From assembly GCA_017550445.1 (NCBI GenBank), contig JAFZOV010000147.1, forward strand, positions 1 through 22,423: 22,423 bases of DNA. Reading direction: 5' to 3'. The notes under the pieces were generated by a model, which was not told the origin of the DNA, ran no database searches, and worked only from the letters and a program-made list of their open reading frames with translations. Both the position numbers and the translations under genes were made by a program. Positions 8,716 to 16,623 of this stretch are shown here, one piece after another (position 1 is the stretch's first letter; each line of letters starts with the position of its first letter). The stretch comes from Fibrobacter sp. Lineage in GTDB: Bacteria; Fibrobacterota; Fibrobacteria; Fibrobacterales; Fibrobacteraceae.

Positions 8716-8814
8716 AGTGCGGAAAAGTGTCATCTACAGGTCAAAATATGCGTGGAAAAGTGTAATGAAAGAGCAAAAATATATGCGGAAAAATGTAGTT
8801 TTAGGGCATGCTCA
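8716..8814 (+). promoter_or_regulatory. Three 33-bp direct repeats upstream of the DUF3990 gene
   Basis: The core GGAAAARTGT occurs at 8721, 8754 and 8787, exactly 33 bases apart each time (about three helical turns). Flanking bases are partly conserved (TGCG before it; CAAAATAT-like ends in the first two units). The third unit runs into the start codon at 8808. The arrangement suits three regularly phased protein-binding sites over the promoter, as in autoregulated two-gene modules. Confidence 0.6.
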
Positions 8815-9476
8815 TTTACCATGGTTCTGAAAAACGAATCGAACACCCCGTTTGGGGGCAGGGAAACCCGCGCAACGACTACGGGAGTGGTTTCTATTGC
8901 ACCGAATCGCTGGAACTCGCAAAAGAATGGGCTTGCCAAAAGAATTCAGATGGTTTTGCAAACGCCTATGAATTGGATTTGTCAGGATTGAAGATTCTTG
9001 ATCTGTCTGCGGAGAATTTCAGCATTCTTCATTGGCTCACCATTTTGATGCAAAACCGAGTTTTTTCGCCCAAGTCGCCACTTGGTAGAACGAATCTAGA
9101 ATTCTTAACTGAAAAATTTCAGGTGCCTTATCTGGATTACGATGTTATTGTGGGCTATCGTGCCAATGATTCGTATTTTTCGTTTGCCAGTGATTTCTTG
9201 GAAAATGTTATTCCCATACAGAATCTAGCTGGTTCTATGAAACTCGGTAGCCTGGGTTTGCAGGTGGTTCTTAAATCGAAAAAGGCTTTTGCACAATTAC
9301 AGTTTAAGGGCGCCGAAAAGGCTTGCAAAGAAGAATACTACATCAAGTATCATAAGCGCGACGATGCAGCCCGAAAGAACTACTTGGAAGGCCTGCGAAA
9401 AGCCCGCCCAAGCGAAGGCGTGTACCTAATCGACATCGTTCGAAATCCGAGGTTACTCGATGAAATCCGCCTATAG
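8808..9476 (+). CDS. DUF3990 family protein, putative ADP-ribosyltransferase-like toxin or effector
   Basis: The 222-aa product shows the DUF3990 layout. MLIYHGS with His5 comes first, then DYGSGFYCTESLELAKEWAC (24-43) with Tyr30. The DUF3990-typical YDVIVGYRANDSYFSFASDF (111-130) follows, then LGLQVVLKSKKAFAQLQF and EYYIKYHKRDD. YHG and GFY fit the H and Y positions of H-Y-E clade ADP-ribosyltransferase folds. No catalytic Glu can be fixed with confidence. Family biochemistry is poorly known, and toxicity is inferred from fold and gene arrangement. There is no signal peptide. It overlaps the next gene by 17 bases and is preceded by three 33-bp repeats. Only a weak AGGG ribosome-binding site is seen at the start. 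Confidence 0.8.
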   Translation: MLIYHGSEKRIEHPVWGQGNPRNDYGSGFYCTESLELAKEWACQKNSDGFANAYELDLSGLKILDLSAENFSILHWLTILMQNRVFSPKSPLGRTNLEFLTEKFQVPYLDYDVIVGYRANDSYFSFASDFLENVIPIQNLAGSMKLGSLGLQVVLKSKKAFAQLQFKGAEKACKEEYYIKYHKRDDAARKNYLEGLRKARPSEGVYLIDIVRNPRLLDEIRL

Positions 9477-9897
9477 CGAAATGTACCTGAGTGATGTTCA
9501 GAAGAATCTTGGATTCTTTTTTCAGGCATCACTCCACAATTTGAACCTGCCTGTAGACGAAGTACAGAATGCTTTTCTTGCTTCAGAAATTCCAACTCAA
9601 ATCGAATTTGCAAATCCGAATTTCTTATGCGGTAAATCCGGCTATGAATTGGCCATTCTCGCGTTCCCGCAATACGAAAAGAAACTTCTGGAAACTATTG
9701 ACGAGCCTTTCTATCCACAAGCGGAATACTGGTGCGGACATGTTCTTGCCTATTATCAGTGGTACTCCTGCAAATCATTCGCCGAAATCCTCGACAAATA
9801 CCCCCTAGAGCGAATTCTCTCCGATTACCACCTGATGCACGAAGCCGACATCACTAAGATGGCTCAGGCGATGGATGCAGTAGTGTTGAAAAAATAA
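9460..9897 (+). CDS. Conserved partner of the DUF3990 protein, putative antitoxin or accessory protein
   Basis: The 145-aa cytosolic protein has CGKSGYELA (57-65), EYWCGHVLAYYQW (89-101) and HEADITKM (127-134). From memory these blocks match an uncharacterised protein often found directly behind DUF3990 genes in Firmicutes and other gut bacteria (PEYWxGWxLAYYQW, LHEAD). Its start ATG 9460 lies inside the DUF3990 gene, with GAGG eight bases upstream, so the two are translationally coupled. This order and overlap are typical of toxin-antitoxin or effector-immunity pairs, but it could equally be a modification target or co-factor. No DNA-binding motif is evident. A palindrome resembling a terminator begins ten bases after the stop. 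Confidence 0.75.
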   Translation: MKSAYSEMYLSDVQKNLGFFFQASLHNLNLPVDEVQNAFLASEIPTQIEFANPNFLCGKSGYELAILAFPQYEKKLLETIDEPFYPQAEYWCGHVLAYYQWYSCKSFAEILDKYPLERILSDYHLMHEADITKMAQAMDAVVLKK

Positions 9898-10390: not shown

Positions 10391-13209
<2,819 letters not shown>

Positions 13210-15639
13210 TTATGCAACCACCTTTAATAAGAATCTTGATAAAACCTGCATTTCATTTGCAAGCATTTTGTCTCCGAAACTCGTTATGCCTTTTCTCCAA
13301 AGGTCAGTGTCTATTTCGTTAAGTTCCTTTACAGAGAGAGCTCCGTCATTGATGACGAACTCTGCTATCTGCTTCATAATCTTAACTTGTTCTTCCGTTA
13401 GTACACGCTGCTGTTGTCCACAATACAAAGCGAAGCGTTTCGCATATCCGTTAATTAGGCTAGTGAGTTTCTGGTTCTTTTTATAAGCATATCGAACAAT
13501 TTGAATCAGATTGGTCAAAGCGTTGACATTTGTCTTTACATCCAATTCGTCTACATTCCCTTCGATATCCAATATTTTATAATTCTTCCATATTTGGAAC
13601 ACACCATACTGCCTATTTTCTGCAAGTAATCTATCACGTAAATCGCTTAGCATAGAATGCGTAATGACAGCATCTTCGGAATTGTAAATTATTCTTAGCG
13701 TTTCGATGCTATCCCTATTGTCGTCTAGATATTTCTCTAAATTTTCAATAAAGTTCTTCGCTGTTTCCTTAGAGAACCCTGCATAAATAATCTCATCAGG
13801 ATCCTCTTCTGTGTTCACGATATATCCGCGTTGCATTTCTAGAAGTTTATTTCGTGCGGCAACATTGCTGATTAAACTGTAAATCAGATCCATTCTTTTT
13901 GTATTGTCGTGAGACGGATCTATATATTCAAATTCATTCAGCAGCCCGTCATCGGTTGCCTGCTGAATGTTTCCTGCAATTGTTCGTGGAGCAAAACCAT
14001 AGGTAGTGATATAATAATCCAAATGCCTACCGAACAGGACATCGTCTTCATACCTTCTGTTGATGGTCGAACAATAATCTCGAAGCAACCACAAGTTTTC
14101 ATCGCTCACTTCATTATGAGCAAGATGCTCTAGAAGGAGTTCTAGAGAAAGAATCTTCTTTCCTGAACTTGAATTTACAATTGGATGCGGAATTATTTTT
14201 TCGTGCTCCGTCACGCCAACGCAATCAACAATGTAGTAGCACTCCTTTGTATTGGCATTTGGTGTCACCTCTCGCAATTTATCATCGCTGATAACACGGC
14301 AACCACGCCCCTTCATCTGAGTATAGAGTACATCTGAGCGGACGTCCTTCATGAAAAGAACAACTTCCAAAGGTTTTACGTCTGTACCAGTCGCTACTAG
14401 TGTTACGGTTACGGCGATTCGGAAATCTTTTTCTGTTCGCAAATCTCGAATTAATCCGTTGGAATCCCCAGATGAATATGTAATCTTCTGCACAAAGTGT
14501 TCCGGACACTCATGATTTTCAAATTCATCTTTGAAAACTTCCTTTACGCCCTCAACAATTTCTGATGCATGGTTGTCATCTTTTGCAAAGATTAGTGTTT
14601 TGGGAACATAAATCCAGTTTTTTTCTCGTTCCGGATAAAGTTCTTCATAAATGGAATTCTTGTATGCTTGCAAAGCTGTCCGAATTTGATCTCGATTCAC
14701 AACAGAACGGTCAAGTTGACCTGCGTCATATTCAACTCTTTGATCTGCTAGATAAGATGCGGATTCATGGGTCATGCGAGCATATTCACCAATTCTTGAT
14801 CCAGGCTTAATTGCACCTCCATGCTCCGTGATTTCTGTCGCAATGCGGTATACTCGTGATGGAACGTTTACGCCGTCAACAACAGACTCGTCATAGGTAT
14901 ATTTCTGAATGATATTGTTGTCGAAATATGCATATGCTTCTGGTGTCGGAGTCGCTGTAAGCCCTATTACCTTTGCTTCGGAGAAGTAATCTAGTACAGC
15001 CTTCCATTTTCCATAGATCGATCTATGACATTCATCTACAATGATTAATTGAAAGTGATTCGGAGGAAGCTTCAAATCTCCATCCAACGCGACAACATCC
15101 CTTGATTCCTTCTCTTCGTCTAAAGTATTTTTTTCATCTTCTGCGTCTTCAGTATCCTCAGATATTTTTTTGCCAGTAAGTACCGCAAATAACTTCTGAA
15201 TAGTGGAAATCACTATATCGGCCTTTATATCGTTTTCCTTCTTCAGCCGCTTAATTTCATACAAAGCACTCATTTCTTGTTGACCTTCTGTCCGGTCAAA
15301 CTGACTGAATTCCGCCTCAGTCTGCCTCGCAAGGTTATTTCGGTCTACAAGAAACAGTACTCTCTTTGTTGGGGTGTAATTCAACATTCTATAGCTTGCT
15401 AGACACGCTAAATAGGTCTTGCCACTACCCGTTGCAAGAATCGCAAGGTTTTTCTTCTTGCCGTTTTTTAGAGATTTTTCAAACTCGATTTCTGCTTCAT
15501 ATTGGCAATCACGTAGGCCTCTTTTTTCAAGACGTGGTAGAGCCCCATATTCCGATTTACAATTGATCACTGACAGCATTTTCTTTGGAGAATGCATCTC
15601 CGAAAGTTCTACATAATTACCATCTGGATCTGTCAGCAT
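13210..15639 (-). CDS. hsdR: Type I restriction enzyme HsdR, helicase/translocase part (frame-shifted from its N-terminus)
   Basis: The 809 aa from ATG 15639 contain the SF2 motor: Walker A ATGSGKT 69-75, TIQK at 146-149, Walker B DECH 202-205, LTATPTP from 227, and a motif VI-like MKGRGCRVI. A C-terminal region that contacts the methylase follows. The motor pulls DNA past the bound complex before cleavage. The nuclease domain that should precede it is encoded in the -1-related frame by the upstream ORF. The two ORFs overlap as ATGCTGA (15639-15633). Adding one A to the AAAA run just upstream would fuse them to give ...IYFKNMLTDPDG.... This is either a real frameshift or assembly indel, or a split gene expressed by termination-reinitiation. 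Confidence 0.9.
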   Translation of the reverse strand: MLTDPDGNYVELSEMHSPKKMLSVINCKSEYGALPRLEKRGLRDCQYEAEIEFEKSLKNGKKKNLAILATGSGKTYLACLASYRMLNYTPTKRVLFLVDRNNLARQTEAEFSQFDRTEGQQEMSALYEIKRLKKENDIKADIVISTIQKLFAVLTGKKISEDTEDAEDEKNTLDEEKESRDVVALDGDLKLPPNHFQLIIVDECHRSIYGKWKAVLDYFSEAKVIGLTATPTPEAYAYFDNNIIQKYTYDESVVDGVNVPSRVYRIATEITEHGGAIKPGSRIGEYARMTHESASYLADQRVEYDAGQLDRSVVNRDQIRTALQAYKNSIYEELYPEREKNWIYVPKTLIFAKDDNHASEIVEGVKEVFKDEFENHECPEHFVQKITYSSGDSNGLIRDLRTEKDFRIAVTVTLVATGTDVKPLEVVLFMKDVRSDVLYTQMKGRGCRVISDDKLREVTPNANTKECYYIVDCVGVTEHEKIIPHPIVNSSSGKKILSLELLLEHLAHNEVSDENLWLLRDYCSTINRRYEDDVLFGRHLDYYITTYGFAPRTIAGNIQQATDDGLLNEFEYIDPSHDNTKRMDLIYSLISNVAARNKLLEMQRGYIVNTEEDPDEIIYAGFSKETAKNFIENLEKYLDDNRDSIETLRIIYNSEDAVITHSMLSDLRDRLLAENRQYGVFQIWKNYKILDIEGNVDELDVKTNVNALTNLIQIVRYAYKKNQKLTSLINGYAKRFALYCGQQQRVLTEEQVKIMKQIAEFVINDGALSVKELNEIDTDLWRKGITSFGDKMLANEMQVLSRFLLKVVA

Positions 15640-15974
15640 ATTTTGAAGTAGATTTTGCTCCCGTTAGCCATGTAGACTAAAGGAATTAATCCAGAAAACC
15701 ACAAGCCATACCATTTCTGCGGATTTTTAGCATAATTCTCAGCCTGCTTTTCTACTTCCGTTCCTAGCGGATTTTCTTCTCTTTTGGCCTCAACAACGGC
15801 GATTGCTTTATCATCGATAAAAAGCAGGTAATCACTTTCCGTATTTCCTAGCATCAAAGCTTCTTTGACGGCTGATGAGGTCTTCGGAATATACTCGTTC
15901 CGAGATACAATATCCCAGCCAGCATTGATAAGCTGCTTATCAATTTTTTCGCGCGCACGTTCTTCAGGCAGCAT
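15633..15974 (-). CDS. hsdR: HsdR N-terminal nuclease part, separate ORF
   Basis: The 113 aa read from ATG 15974, chosen because AAAGGA lies about ten bases upstream and MLPEERAREKID is the usual HsdR beginning. An in-frame ATG at 16055 would add 27 unconvincing residues. The ORF holds a PD-(D/E)XK nuclease core: ESDYLLF with Asp48, VVEAK with Glu62 and Lys64, and the RecB-like QxxxY motif at 77-81. It stops at TGA 15635-15633, in the middle of what should be one protein with the 13210-15639 product (about 920 aa when joined). All catalytic residues are present, so cleavage would be possible if the parts are joined or associate. Confidence 0.85.
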   Translation of the reverse strand: MLPEERAREKIDKQLINAGWDIVSRNEYIPKTSSAVKEALMLGNTESDYLLFIDDKAIAVVEAKREENPLGTEVEKQAENYAKNPQKWYGLWFSGLIPLVYMANGSKIYFKIC

Positions 15975-16000
15975 AAGTGAAGTTTCCTTTCGTATGCATA
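15975..16000 (-). promoter_or_regulatory. Possible promoter and ribosome-binding site of hsdR
   Basis: On the reverse strand CATATATGCATACG precedes AAAGGA and ATG 15974. TATATG may be a -10 box, which would place the hsdR promoter downstream of the structured element. Confidence 0.35.
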
Positions 16001-16064
16001 TATGAAATTTGTGAAATGCTGCTCTTATTTCGTAAGTGAGAACGATTTGAGCCAAAATTGTCAG

Positions 16065-16236
16065 AAAAACAAAAAAGGCGTGGAGTCGTAGCGCTTACCT
16101 ATTCTGCGGGCTACCACACCCTTCCAATCAATAAGCACAAACGACCCACGCCCCAGATGGGACGTGAGCGTTCGTCTTATTCTCGATTGGATTGAAAGTG
16201 GTAGTTTCAGAATAGAGAATAAGAGACGAATCTCAA
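16065..16236 (-). ncRNA. Four-armed palindromic structured element with terminator-like end
   Basis: Reading the reverse strand, four arms are mutually complementary. Arm 1 is 16236-16218 and contains TCTCTTATTCTC. Arm 2 is 16190-16159 and contains GAGAATAAGACGAACG. Arm 3 is 16154-16124 and contains GGGGCGTGGGTCGTTTGTGC. Arm 4 is 16100-16077 and contains GGTAAGCGCTACGAC then CCACGCC. Arms 1:2, 2:3 and 3:4 can each pair. The 3:4 stem (GGCGTGG/CCACGCC, GTCGT/ACGAC, GCTTA/TAAGC) is followed directly by TTTTTTGTTTTT. Loops between arms are complementary as well (CTACCAC/GTGGTAG), making one imperfect ~155-nt palindrome centred near 16157. This looks like a terminated small RNA or an attenuator-like leader upstream of hsdR. 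It matches no RNA family I know. Confidence 0.45.
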
Positions 16237-16458
16237 AATTTCTGTTCGCTCCGCACCTTTCGGTACGGGGCTATGTCATAGGGAAATATAAATCTTTTCT
16301 TAAGAAGAAAGCTTGTTGGATAACGAATGTATCCCAAAAGAGCGAATCGTTTCTGTACGAAACTATTACAAATATTCAAAATTGTAGTAGTTTTGTACAT
16401 AAGCCGCCAACGGCGGGCGATTTATGTAGGAAAATGAGTTAATCCCTTTTGGGAACTT
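16237..16458. other. Non-coding stretch with a series of inverted repeats
   Basis: Dyads seen are CCGCACC/GGTACGG (about 16254-16268), a TTTCTTAAGAAGAAA dyad (about 16295-16309), TTGGATA/TATCC (about 16315-16335), and a 44-nt inverted repeat 16355-16398 with 17-base arms differing at two positions (GTACGAAACTATTACAA / TTGTAGTAGTTTTGTAC). A hairpin CATAA..CCGCC-AAC-GGCGG..TTTATG follows at 16398-16426. No ORF here has convincing protein character. Confidence 0.6.
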
Positions 16459-16623
16459 CTATAGTCTCTTTTGATCATTTTTCTGAGCTTCAAGAATGTC
16501 TCTTTCAAACTCTTGGCAGATTTTGTCTAGTTCTGAGAAATCAGGCTTTTGATGCCGAACGAACAACTGATACAATTCGTTTTTCTCAAGGAGTTTTAAG
16601 TATTCTTTACTTGGAGTCCTCAT
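16459..16623 (-). CDS. Small hypothetical protein (54 aa)
   Basis: It starts at ATG 16623, supported by AAAGAGG seven bases upstream. An ATG at 16671 in the same frame would add 16 residues but is less likely. The product is hydrophilic and mostly helical in composition: TPSKEYLKLLEKNELYQLF, then HQKPDFSELDKICQEFERDI, ending in a basic KNDQKRL tail. No membrane segment or known motif is seen. It lies between the RM operon with its structured elements and the hydrolase gene, with hairpins following its stop. Its size and charge would suit an antitoxin or accessory protein, but this is only a guess from context. Confidence 0.55.
   Translation of the reverse strand: MRTPSKEYLKLLEKNELYQLFVRHQKPDFSELDKICQEFERDILEAQKNDQKRL

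Follow-up and report, generated by a model that had tools for sequence, protein, structure and literature searches.

A structurally conserved RNA leader family ahead of restriction and defence-type operons in Fibrobacter, with a putative conditional terminator

Fibrobacter is best known for the breakdown of fibre in the rumen. Transcription attenuators of the trp type carry four arms that can pair as 1:2, 2:3 and 3:4, with a terminator and a T-run placed before the first gene, and the leaders of riboswitches and protein-binding attenuators hold a mutually exclusive terminator and antiterminator in the 5' leader. How bacteria restrain several restriction systems at a time and fit newly acquired ones to the host is an open question. 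The trp leader of B. subtilis is an example of the first kind (PMC3913778, PMC4027176), and the ANTAR and L10(L12)4 leaders are examples of the second (PMC3369936, PMC4538822). Restriction genes are controlled through antisense RNAs, methylated promoters and control proteins, as well as by hairpins that hinder access to the start site, according to the available portion of a review of the subject (PMC12707154), and a shared leader of the kind present in Fibrobacter is not among the controls described in that portion.

The window analysed here is a stretch of 22,423 nucleotides of Fibrobacter sp. (contig JAFZOV010000147.1), and the element that lies in it above a type I restriction operon belongs to a family of RNA leaders, conserved in structure and outside Rfam, which Fibrobacter and its relatives have closely ahead of many restriction or other defence-type operons. 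The leader is rated as a new class of RNA with a familiar type of function, one that would work like a transcription attenuator or the expression platform of a riboswitch. It has in common with the trp-type attenuators the four-arm pairing scheme, the terminator and the T-run ahead of the first gene, but is devoid of a conserved leader peptide, would control very different genes and adds a fifth arm past the terminator. With the riboswitch and protein-binding leaders it would share the mutually exclusive terminator and antiterminator, but it matches no Rfam family (riboswitches and T-boxes included) and stands as one class before unrelated operons. Control of restriction genes at the RNA level would be common to the leader and to the antisense RNAs and start-site hairpins; in the available portion of PMC12707154 the latter belong to single systems and act by antisense pairing or by hiding the start, whereas the Fibrobacter leader is a sense-strand RNA ahead of type I, IIG, III and ISP systems. 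Literature searches found no paper on the element, which does not in itself establish its absence from print, and the available portions of PMC3874152, PMC12707154 and PMC2864571 do not mention it.

The leader and the hsd operon in the window

The conserved leader RNA, as delimited by the alignment of 80 copies, is 207 nt long and extends from a GACATAG motif to a T6 run (16071..16277, minus strand, as are all the features below). The initial annotation had placed a four-armed palindrome at 16065..16236; the four arms do lie inside these limits, while the conserved RNA runs from 16277 to 16071, and a -10-like box and a further arm lie beyond them. The box, TATATT (16285..16290), is a conserved AT-rich element just above GACATAG, and T occupies position -8 in 77 of the 81 non-redundant stretches upstream of leaders. 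It probably acts as the promoter of the leader, the 5' end of the RNA presumably being at GACATAG.

The RNA begins with the hairpin P1 (16248..16271), in which 8 of 10 pairs are changed on both sides and 84.9% of the alignment cells are paired, the pairs 14/31 and 10/35 being often unpaired in the 80 copies. The GAGA-UUCG-UCUC hairpin P2 (16223..16234; 94.4% of cells paired, 1 of 4 pairs changed on both sides) is followed by arm 1 (16215..16222), whose helix with arm 2 is 98.1% paired and changed on both sides at 2 of 8 pairs. Next are the 5' halves V1, D and V2 of a nested hairpin (16185..16215), with helices that are 84.6-92.2% paired and carry both-side changes at all pairs, arm 2 (16159..16184), which has arm 1 or arm 3 as its partner, and arm 3 (16130..16154), which is paired in 96.6% of cells with arm 2 and in 95.7 and 97.6% with arm 4. 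The 3' halves V2', D' and V1' (16099..16129), recognised by covariation, precede arm 4 (16077..16098), the 3' side of the terminator stem, defined by co-varying 3:4 pairing. The segments GGCGTGG/CCACGCC, GTCGT/ACGAC and GCTTA/TAAGC, noticed at the outset, are all present and together make up the 3:4 stem; the T-run TTTTTTGTTTTT (16065..16076), read from the sequence, comes directly after it, as had been described. The distance to hsdR, put earlier at about 100 bases, agrees with an ATG placed 97 nt past the last T of the T6 run (16071 to 15974). Arm 5 (16006..16029), complementary to the P2-arm 1 segment, forms the inverted repeat I1 with 16218-16241.

The minus strand folds with -84.6 kcal/mol against -55.3 +/- 4.1 for shuffled sequences (z -7.09; none of 200 shuffles as good) and the complementary strand folds alike (z -7.28). 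Since both strands fold equally well, folding alone cannot assign the strand, and the minus strand was assigned from the promoter-like box, the T-run and the orientation of the gene. The leader scores 239 bits with the covariance model of the family, for which the window itself supplied one training row. Rfam covariance models at the gathering score gave no match in the window, and when E-values up to 5 were admitted for 15900-16500 there were just two hits, weak and chance-like, which lie outside the element on the other strand. Additional inverted repeats are present above the leader (16351-16371 with 16382-16402 and 16391-16408 with 16416-16433), with sub-threshold Rfam scores.

The first gene below the leader is hsdR (13210..15974), which is read in two frames, 15974-15633 with an HSDR_N domain and 15639-13210 with ResIII and EcoEI_R_C, and is followed by hsdM and hsdS (10391..13209; N6_Mtase, HsdM_N and Methylase_S). 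The two hsdR frames overlap at 15633-15640, where a difference of one base in length from the related locus of another Fibrobacter sp. (L006) changes the reading frame some 113 codons into the gene; this may be either a sequencing error or a real inactivation. Next to the operon, at 8808-9897, a DUF3990 protein overlaps by a few bases a 145-aa protein with no Pfam match.

The hsdR-hsdM DNA (11760-16007) is closely similar to Lachnospiraceae and Roseburia loci, with HsdR identities of up to 89%, and the closest relatives of the operon in the HsdR search are mostly from Lachnospiraceae. The likeness to four foreign hsd loci (L001, L002, L003 and L057) ends at 16007, next to arm 5. These similarities point to a horizontal transfer of the hsdR-hsdM region and, in view of the break at 16007, the leader module including arm 5 was seemingly joined there to an imported operon.

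Distribution of the family and the genes below it

A search with the HsdR of the window yielded 79 loci, one of which is the locus L006 with two leader copies, in a genome with eight leader matches. Matches to the leader occur in 79 of the 80 genomes of the genus to which L006 is assigned, and the covariance model found the family in 93 of 167 genomes of the phylum, comprising the 79 of the genus, nine of a second group and five that are more distant, whose copies keep the architecture in a largely different sequence. The copies are multiple and dispersed, at times paired at 1.3-2.1 kb from each other, and their arms are much alike within one genome. For the alignment, 136 profile hits from the best matches were reduced to 128 by coverage limits and to 111 unique copies, of which 95 could be trimmed by motif and 16 could not; 80 of the 95 were picked by hand, leaving out 15 of unusual length or nearly duplicate, and the alignment is therefore biased to regular copies.

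Matches in the second group (L236-L238, L249, L250, L257 and L258) are longer, 261-296 nt, and precede proteins that by eye resemble DNA methylases (L236, L237, L258) or else surface-type or unknown proteins. The distant relatives in the five other genomes (L239-L243, L251, L252 and L259) keep the architecture, show no fifth arm and precede genes that do not resemble restriction genes. Neither a comparison of 15990-16460 with phage and plasmid records nor an exact search of viral contigs with a 22-nt core of the leader gave a match.

The context of the leader was examined with ORFs of at least 70 aa, distances being taken from the T-run to the first possible start codon. The first gene below is co-oriented with the leader in all the 109 testable copies among the 111 fetched, at a median distance of 62 nt (range 16-395) and within 60 nt in 51 of the 109, while the nearest ORF above runs opposite to the leader in 62 cases and shares its strand in 45. 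Of 30 first ORFs outside the genus, 28 have the orientation of the leader, and each of the other two is a short opposite ORF with a longer co-oriented one behind it.

Grouped by similarity, the 109 first proteins form 22 groups, which were assigned to cargo classes through scanned representatives. By these representatives, 76 of the 109 belong to restriction-modification or related defence and helicase groups, namely type I/IIG N6-methylases (26), type ISP enzymes (23), type III mod proteins (11), HsdR, MmeI-like proteins and split methylases (three each), EcoRI methylases, Snf2/HKD helicases and cases with Eco57I as the second gene (two each), and one further N6-methylase. The other 33 lie outside the restriction groups, some of this cargo not being defence by the libraries used. 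Eight have a TPR protein accompanied by MazG-like and Schlafen-type helicase partners, eight an unnamed cassette of small genes, five a protein of 793-844 aa from a group in which neither of the two scanned members matches Pfam, and three a large protein that hits an Ig-like domain weakly; in two, a small protein precedes a NERD protein. The last seven are singles and include an acyltransferase, an EndoU nuclease and a protein in which HSDR_N_2 is hit weakly.

Among 58 non-redundant proteins below the leader, 21 match N6_Mtase and nine N6_N4_Mtase. Both are absent from the best 25 of the 54 families matched by the 57 nearest proteins above it, so that each can account for at most one protein there (Fisher's test, 21 of 58 against 1 of 57, p 8.7e-7); one of the 57 matches MmeI_Mtase and is at the same time the gene below another leader copy. 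Matches of defence type do occur above the leader too (PDC-S05 in up to five of the 57, others in at most two, and one ToxN). The association of leader and restriction genes is one-sided: in the 80 genomes all four type III mod genes (PF12564) have the leader, while it stands at only one of the best 30 N6_Mtase loci, which rules it out as a general companion of methylases.

Other gene rows were seen at these loci. A cassette of three small genes (about 224, 139 and 119 aa; four genes in L006) sits between two leader copies in eight loci (L117:5831-7283, L118:5408-6860, L119, L120, L121, L122, L124 and L006:5567-7293), the second copy being followed by a restriction-type gene or, in L122, by a 793-aa protein. 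Neither Pfam nor PADLOC gave a match to the 224-aa protein in the one member scanned, and a scan of viral contigs gave no relative of it. Another unnamed cassette (227 and 124 aa), also flanked by two leader copies, precedes a type ISP gene (L127:6465-7392 and L125:4809-5736). At L134:5318-9596 and L133 a TPR protein and a MazG-like protein follow the leader, with a Schlafen group 3 helicase protein added in L134; this row is perhaps an undescribed defence system.

Two alternative folds and a fifth arm

The pairings 1:2, 2:3 and 3:4 proposed from the single sequence are all kept among the 80 aligned copies and, far from diverging without compensation, the arms of the relatives show compensating changes in all three. 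Two folds were compared, a nested fold (V1:V1', D:D', V2:V2' and 2:3, with P1 and P2) and a terminator fold (1:2, 3:4 and a GGG/CCC mini-hairpin, with P1 and P2). Pairing in the nested fold reaches 91.5% and drops to 37-47% when the partners are slid by 1-3 columns, and 582 of its cells show double changes where shuffled alignments have 169; the terminator fold is 93.8% paired, with 129 double-change cells against 41. As the copies are related, the double changes are not all independent and these cell counts are not counts of events.

Since P1 and P2 belong to both folds, pairs unique to the terminator fold were inspected separately. The pair 63/94 is C-G in 62, U-A in eight, U-G in four and unpaired in six of the 80 copies; nucleotide 63 lies in V1 of the nested fold as well, where its partner is nucleotide 179. 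The pair 134/192, between arm 3 and arm 4, is U-A in 71, C-G in seven and U-G in two copies and is never unpaired. Two copies, L189 and L190, carry a concerted change of one nucleotide per arm, from A-U-A-U to G-C-G-C over the four arms, which ties the three pairings to one another, although the two are alike and their change may be one single event.

The covariation supports two folds that would be mutually exclusive, a nested hairpin with 2:3 and a 1:2 fold with the 3:4 terminator, as 2:3 competes with 3:4 for arm 3 and with 1:2 for arm 2. In 71 of the 80 copies the nested fold has the greater stability, by 6.8 kcal/mol on average, and in the other nine the terminator fold; judged by energy only, termination would thus be the less frequent result. 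When the window RNA is folded as a growing prefix, 1:2 is present at nt 101-148 and is replaced from nt 156 by 2:3 and the nested hairpin, and when the RNA is extended to the gene start its best fold has the nested hairpin and 1:5 together, arm 1 being contested between 1:2 and 1:5.

The spacer between the T-run and the gene is complementary to nt 41-68 of the leader. In a test set of 55 non-redundant spacers out of 106, the spacer-leader duplex averages -13.3 kcal/mol, compared with -9.1 when the spacers are dinucleotide-shuffled and -8.6 when DNA lying 200-660 nt farther along is used, and for 29 of the 55 at most five of 100 shuffles are as good; for the window, the arm 5 duplex is -12.6 kcal/mol, equalled by one of 100 shuffles. 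A complementarity scan of 47 leaders has its peak at nt 41-68 (z -1.32 and -1.11) and a smaller one at 185-204 (-0.77). Variant spacers favour their own leader over the common one in 20 of 24 cases and the reverse in three (p 1.7e-4), and 24 of 31 common spacers favour the common leader (p 1.7e-4). The second group shows the peak at nt 41-68 again, with z -0.92 +/- 0.24 over 21 copies, and in eight distant copies the peak is not seen. Arm 5 thus co-varies with nt 41-68, which ties the leader to the gene below.

Proposed mechanism and its alternatives

On the strength of these comparisons the leader is probably a cis-acting, conditional terminator with a promoter of its own, transcribed into the hsd operon, that is, an attenuator or antiterminator element. 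The sequence places an intrinsic terminator between the promoter-like box and the first gene, and the pairing exclusive with it, 2:3 with the nested hairpin, co-varies. In the OFF state arm 1 would pair with arm 2, leaving arm 3 free to form the intrinsic terminator with arm 4, and transcription would halt ahead of hsdR. In the ON state arm 2 would pair with arm 3 within the long nested hairpin (V1, D and V2), no terminator would form, the polymerase would read through into the hsd operon, and the freed P2-arm 1 segment would pair with arm 5 just above the gene. These assignments are proposed from the joint occurrence of the nested hairpin and 1:5 in the extended fold and from the competition of 1:2 with 1:5. 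Attenuation had been among the readings of the initial annotation; the compensating changes in all three pairings and the co-oriented gene in 109 of 109 copies bear out its structural side, and attenuation itself is the likely function read from them. From this arrangement we infer a transcript with regulated readthrough, one of the two states as the default and a possible effect of arm 5 on translation. A special antiterminator of the NusG type was considered as a partner; NusG matches occur in 17 of 31 genomes, with two in one of these, and single out no factor.

The initial annotation had leaned to an independent RNA with a possible hsdR promoter below the T-run; this alternative was weighed here as a small RNA terminated at the T-run and active in trans. 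A promoter-like box and a strong terminator do bound a unit of about 207 nt, and the likeness of the arms among the copies of one genome would permit action in trans, but this explanation is unlikely, because the gene below is co-oriented throughout, in 51 of 109 copies no more than 60 nt separate its first possible start from the T-run, which would leave little room for a separate promoter there, and the spacer co-varies with the leader. Under the cis-acting reading, leaders that have terminated might still have an additional role in trans.

Quite improbable is a trp-type attenuation by the ribosome, in which translation of a short ORF with a UUG start over P2-arm 1 would decide between 1:2 and 2:3. 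UUG is present at nt 42 in 66 of the 80 copies with a closed frame over arm 1, which in the window reads LRFVSYSLF and a stop, and 64 of 95 leaders hold a closed AUG-started ORF of at least six codons, with 44 counts of a start near nt 16-19. Against this, 14 of the 80 copies have no start codon at nt 42, eight of them having a stop, an SD-like 4-mer precedes only one of the 66, the length is not kept (40 of the 66 share one end), the residues at the variable stem differ, and the window leader is without a closed AUG ORF of at least six codons. A conserved translated leader ORF was not found, and a ribosome on such an ORF is unlikely as the general sensor.

The complementarity and co-variation of 1:5 would also suit a leader that acts solely after the termination point, mainly on translation or mRNA stability and by way of the 1:5 pairing beside the gene start, with the terminator incidental; this is very unlikely given that the 3:4 stem co-varies independently and runs straight into a T-run in the 80 aligned copies, for which such a run had served as the trimming point. 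A mobile repeat (MITE-like, or an attC-like recombination site) lying before genes by chance would fit the dispersed copies, the pairs 1.3-2.1 kb apart and the break in similarity at 16007 beside arm 5, but is highly improbable in view of the single orientation to the gene, the covariation in two alternative folds and the lack, in 96 copies, of any excess of direct repeats at the ends such as target-site duplications of MITE type would give (6-mers in 16 of 96 against 25.4 expected by swapping, 7-mers in 8 against 8.3). A functionless relic of serial inverted duplications, suggested earlier by the four related arms at one locus, can practically be dismissed, being unable to account for compensating changes kept over 80 copies and matches in 79 of 80 genomes.

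The attenuator reading has a bearing on how restriction systems are accommodated, as a leader of the host lineage precedes very different restriction operons, including a type I operon with mostly Lachnospiraceae relatives. It may even be, though this is put forward only tentatively and is rather doubtful, that the phylum has an RNA-controlled regulon in which one leader class sets the expression of many phage-contact genes (restriction, other defence, and some surface-type and toxin genes) as a group. In such a regulon, since the arms are nearly alike among the copies of one genome, terminated leaders of one operon could pair with nascent leaders of a second one and so link the defence operons. 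If the switch is real, it would give one experimental point of entry to a set of defence genes, together with a novel class of RNA whose trigger can be looked for directly.
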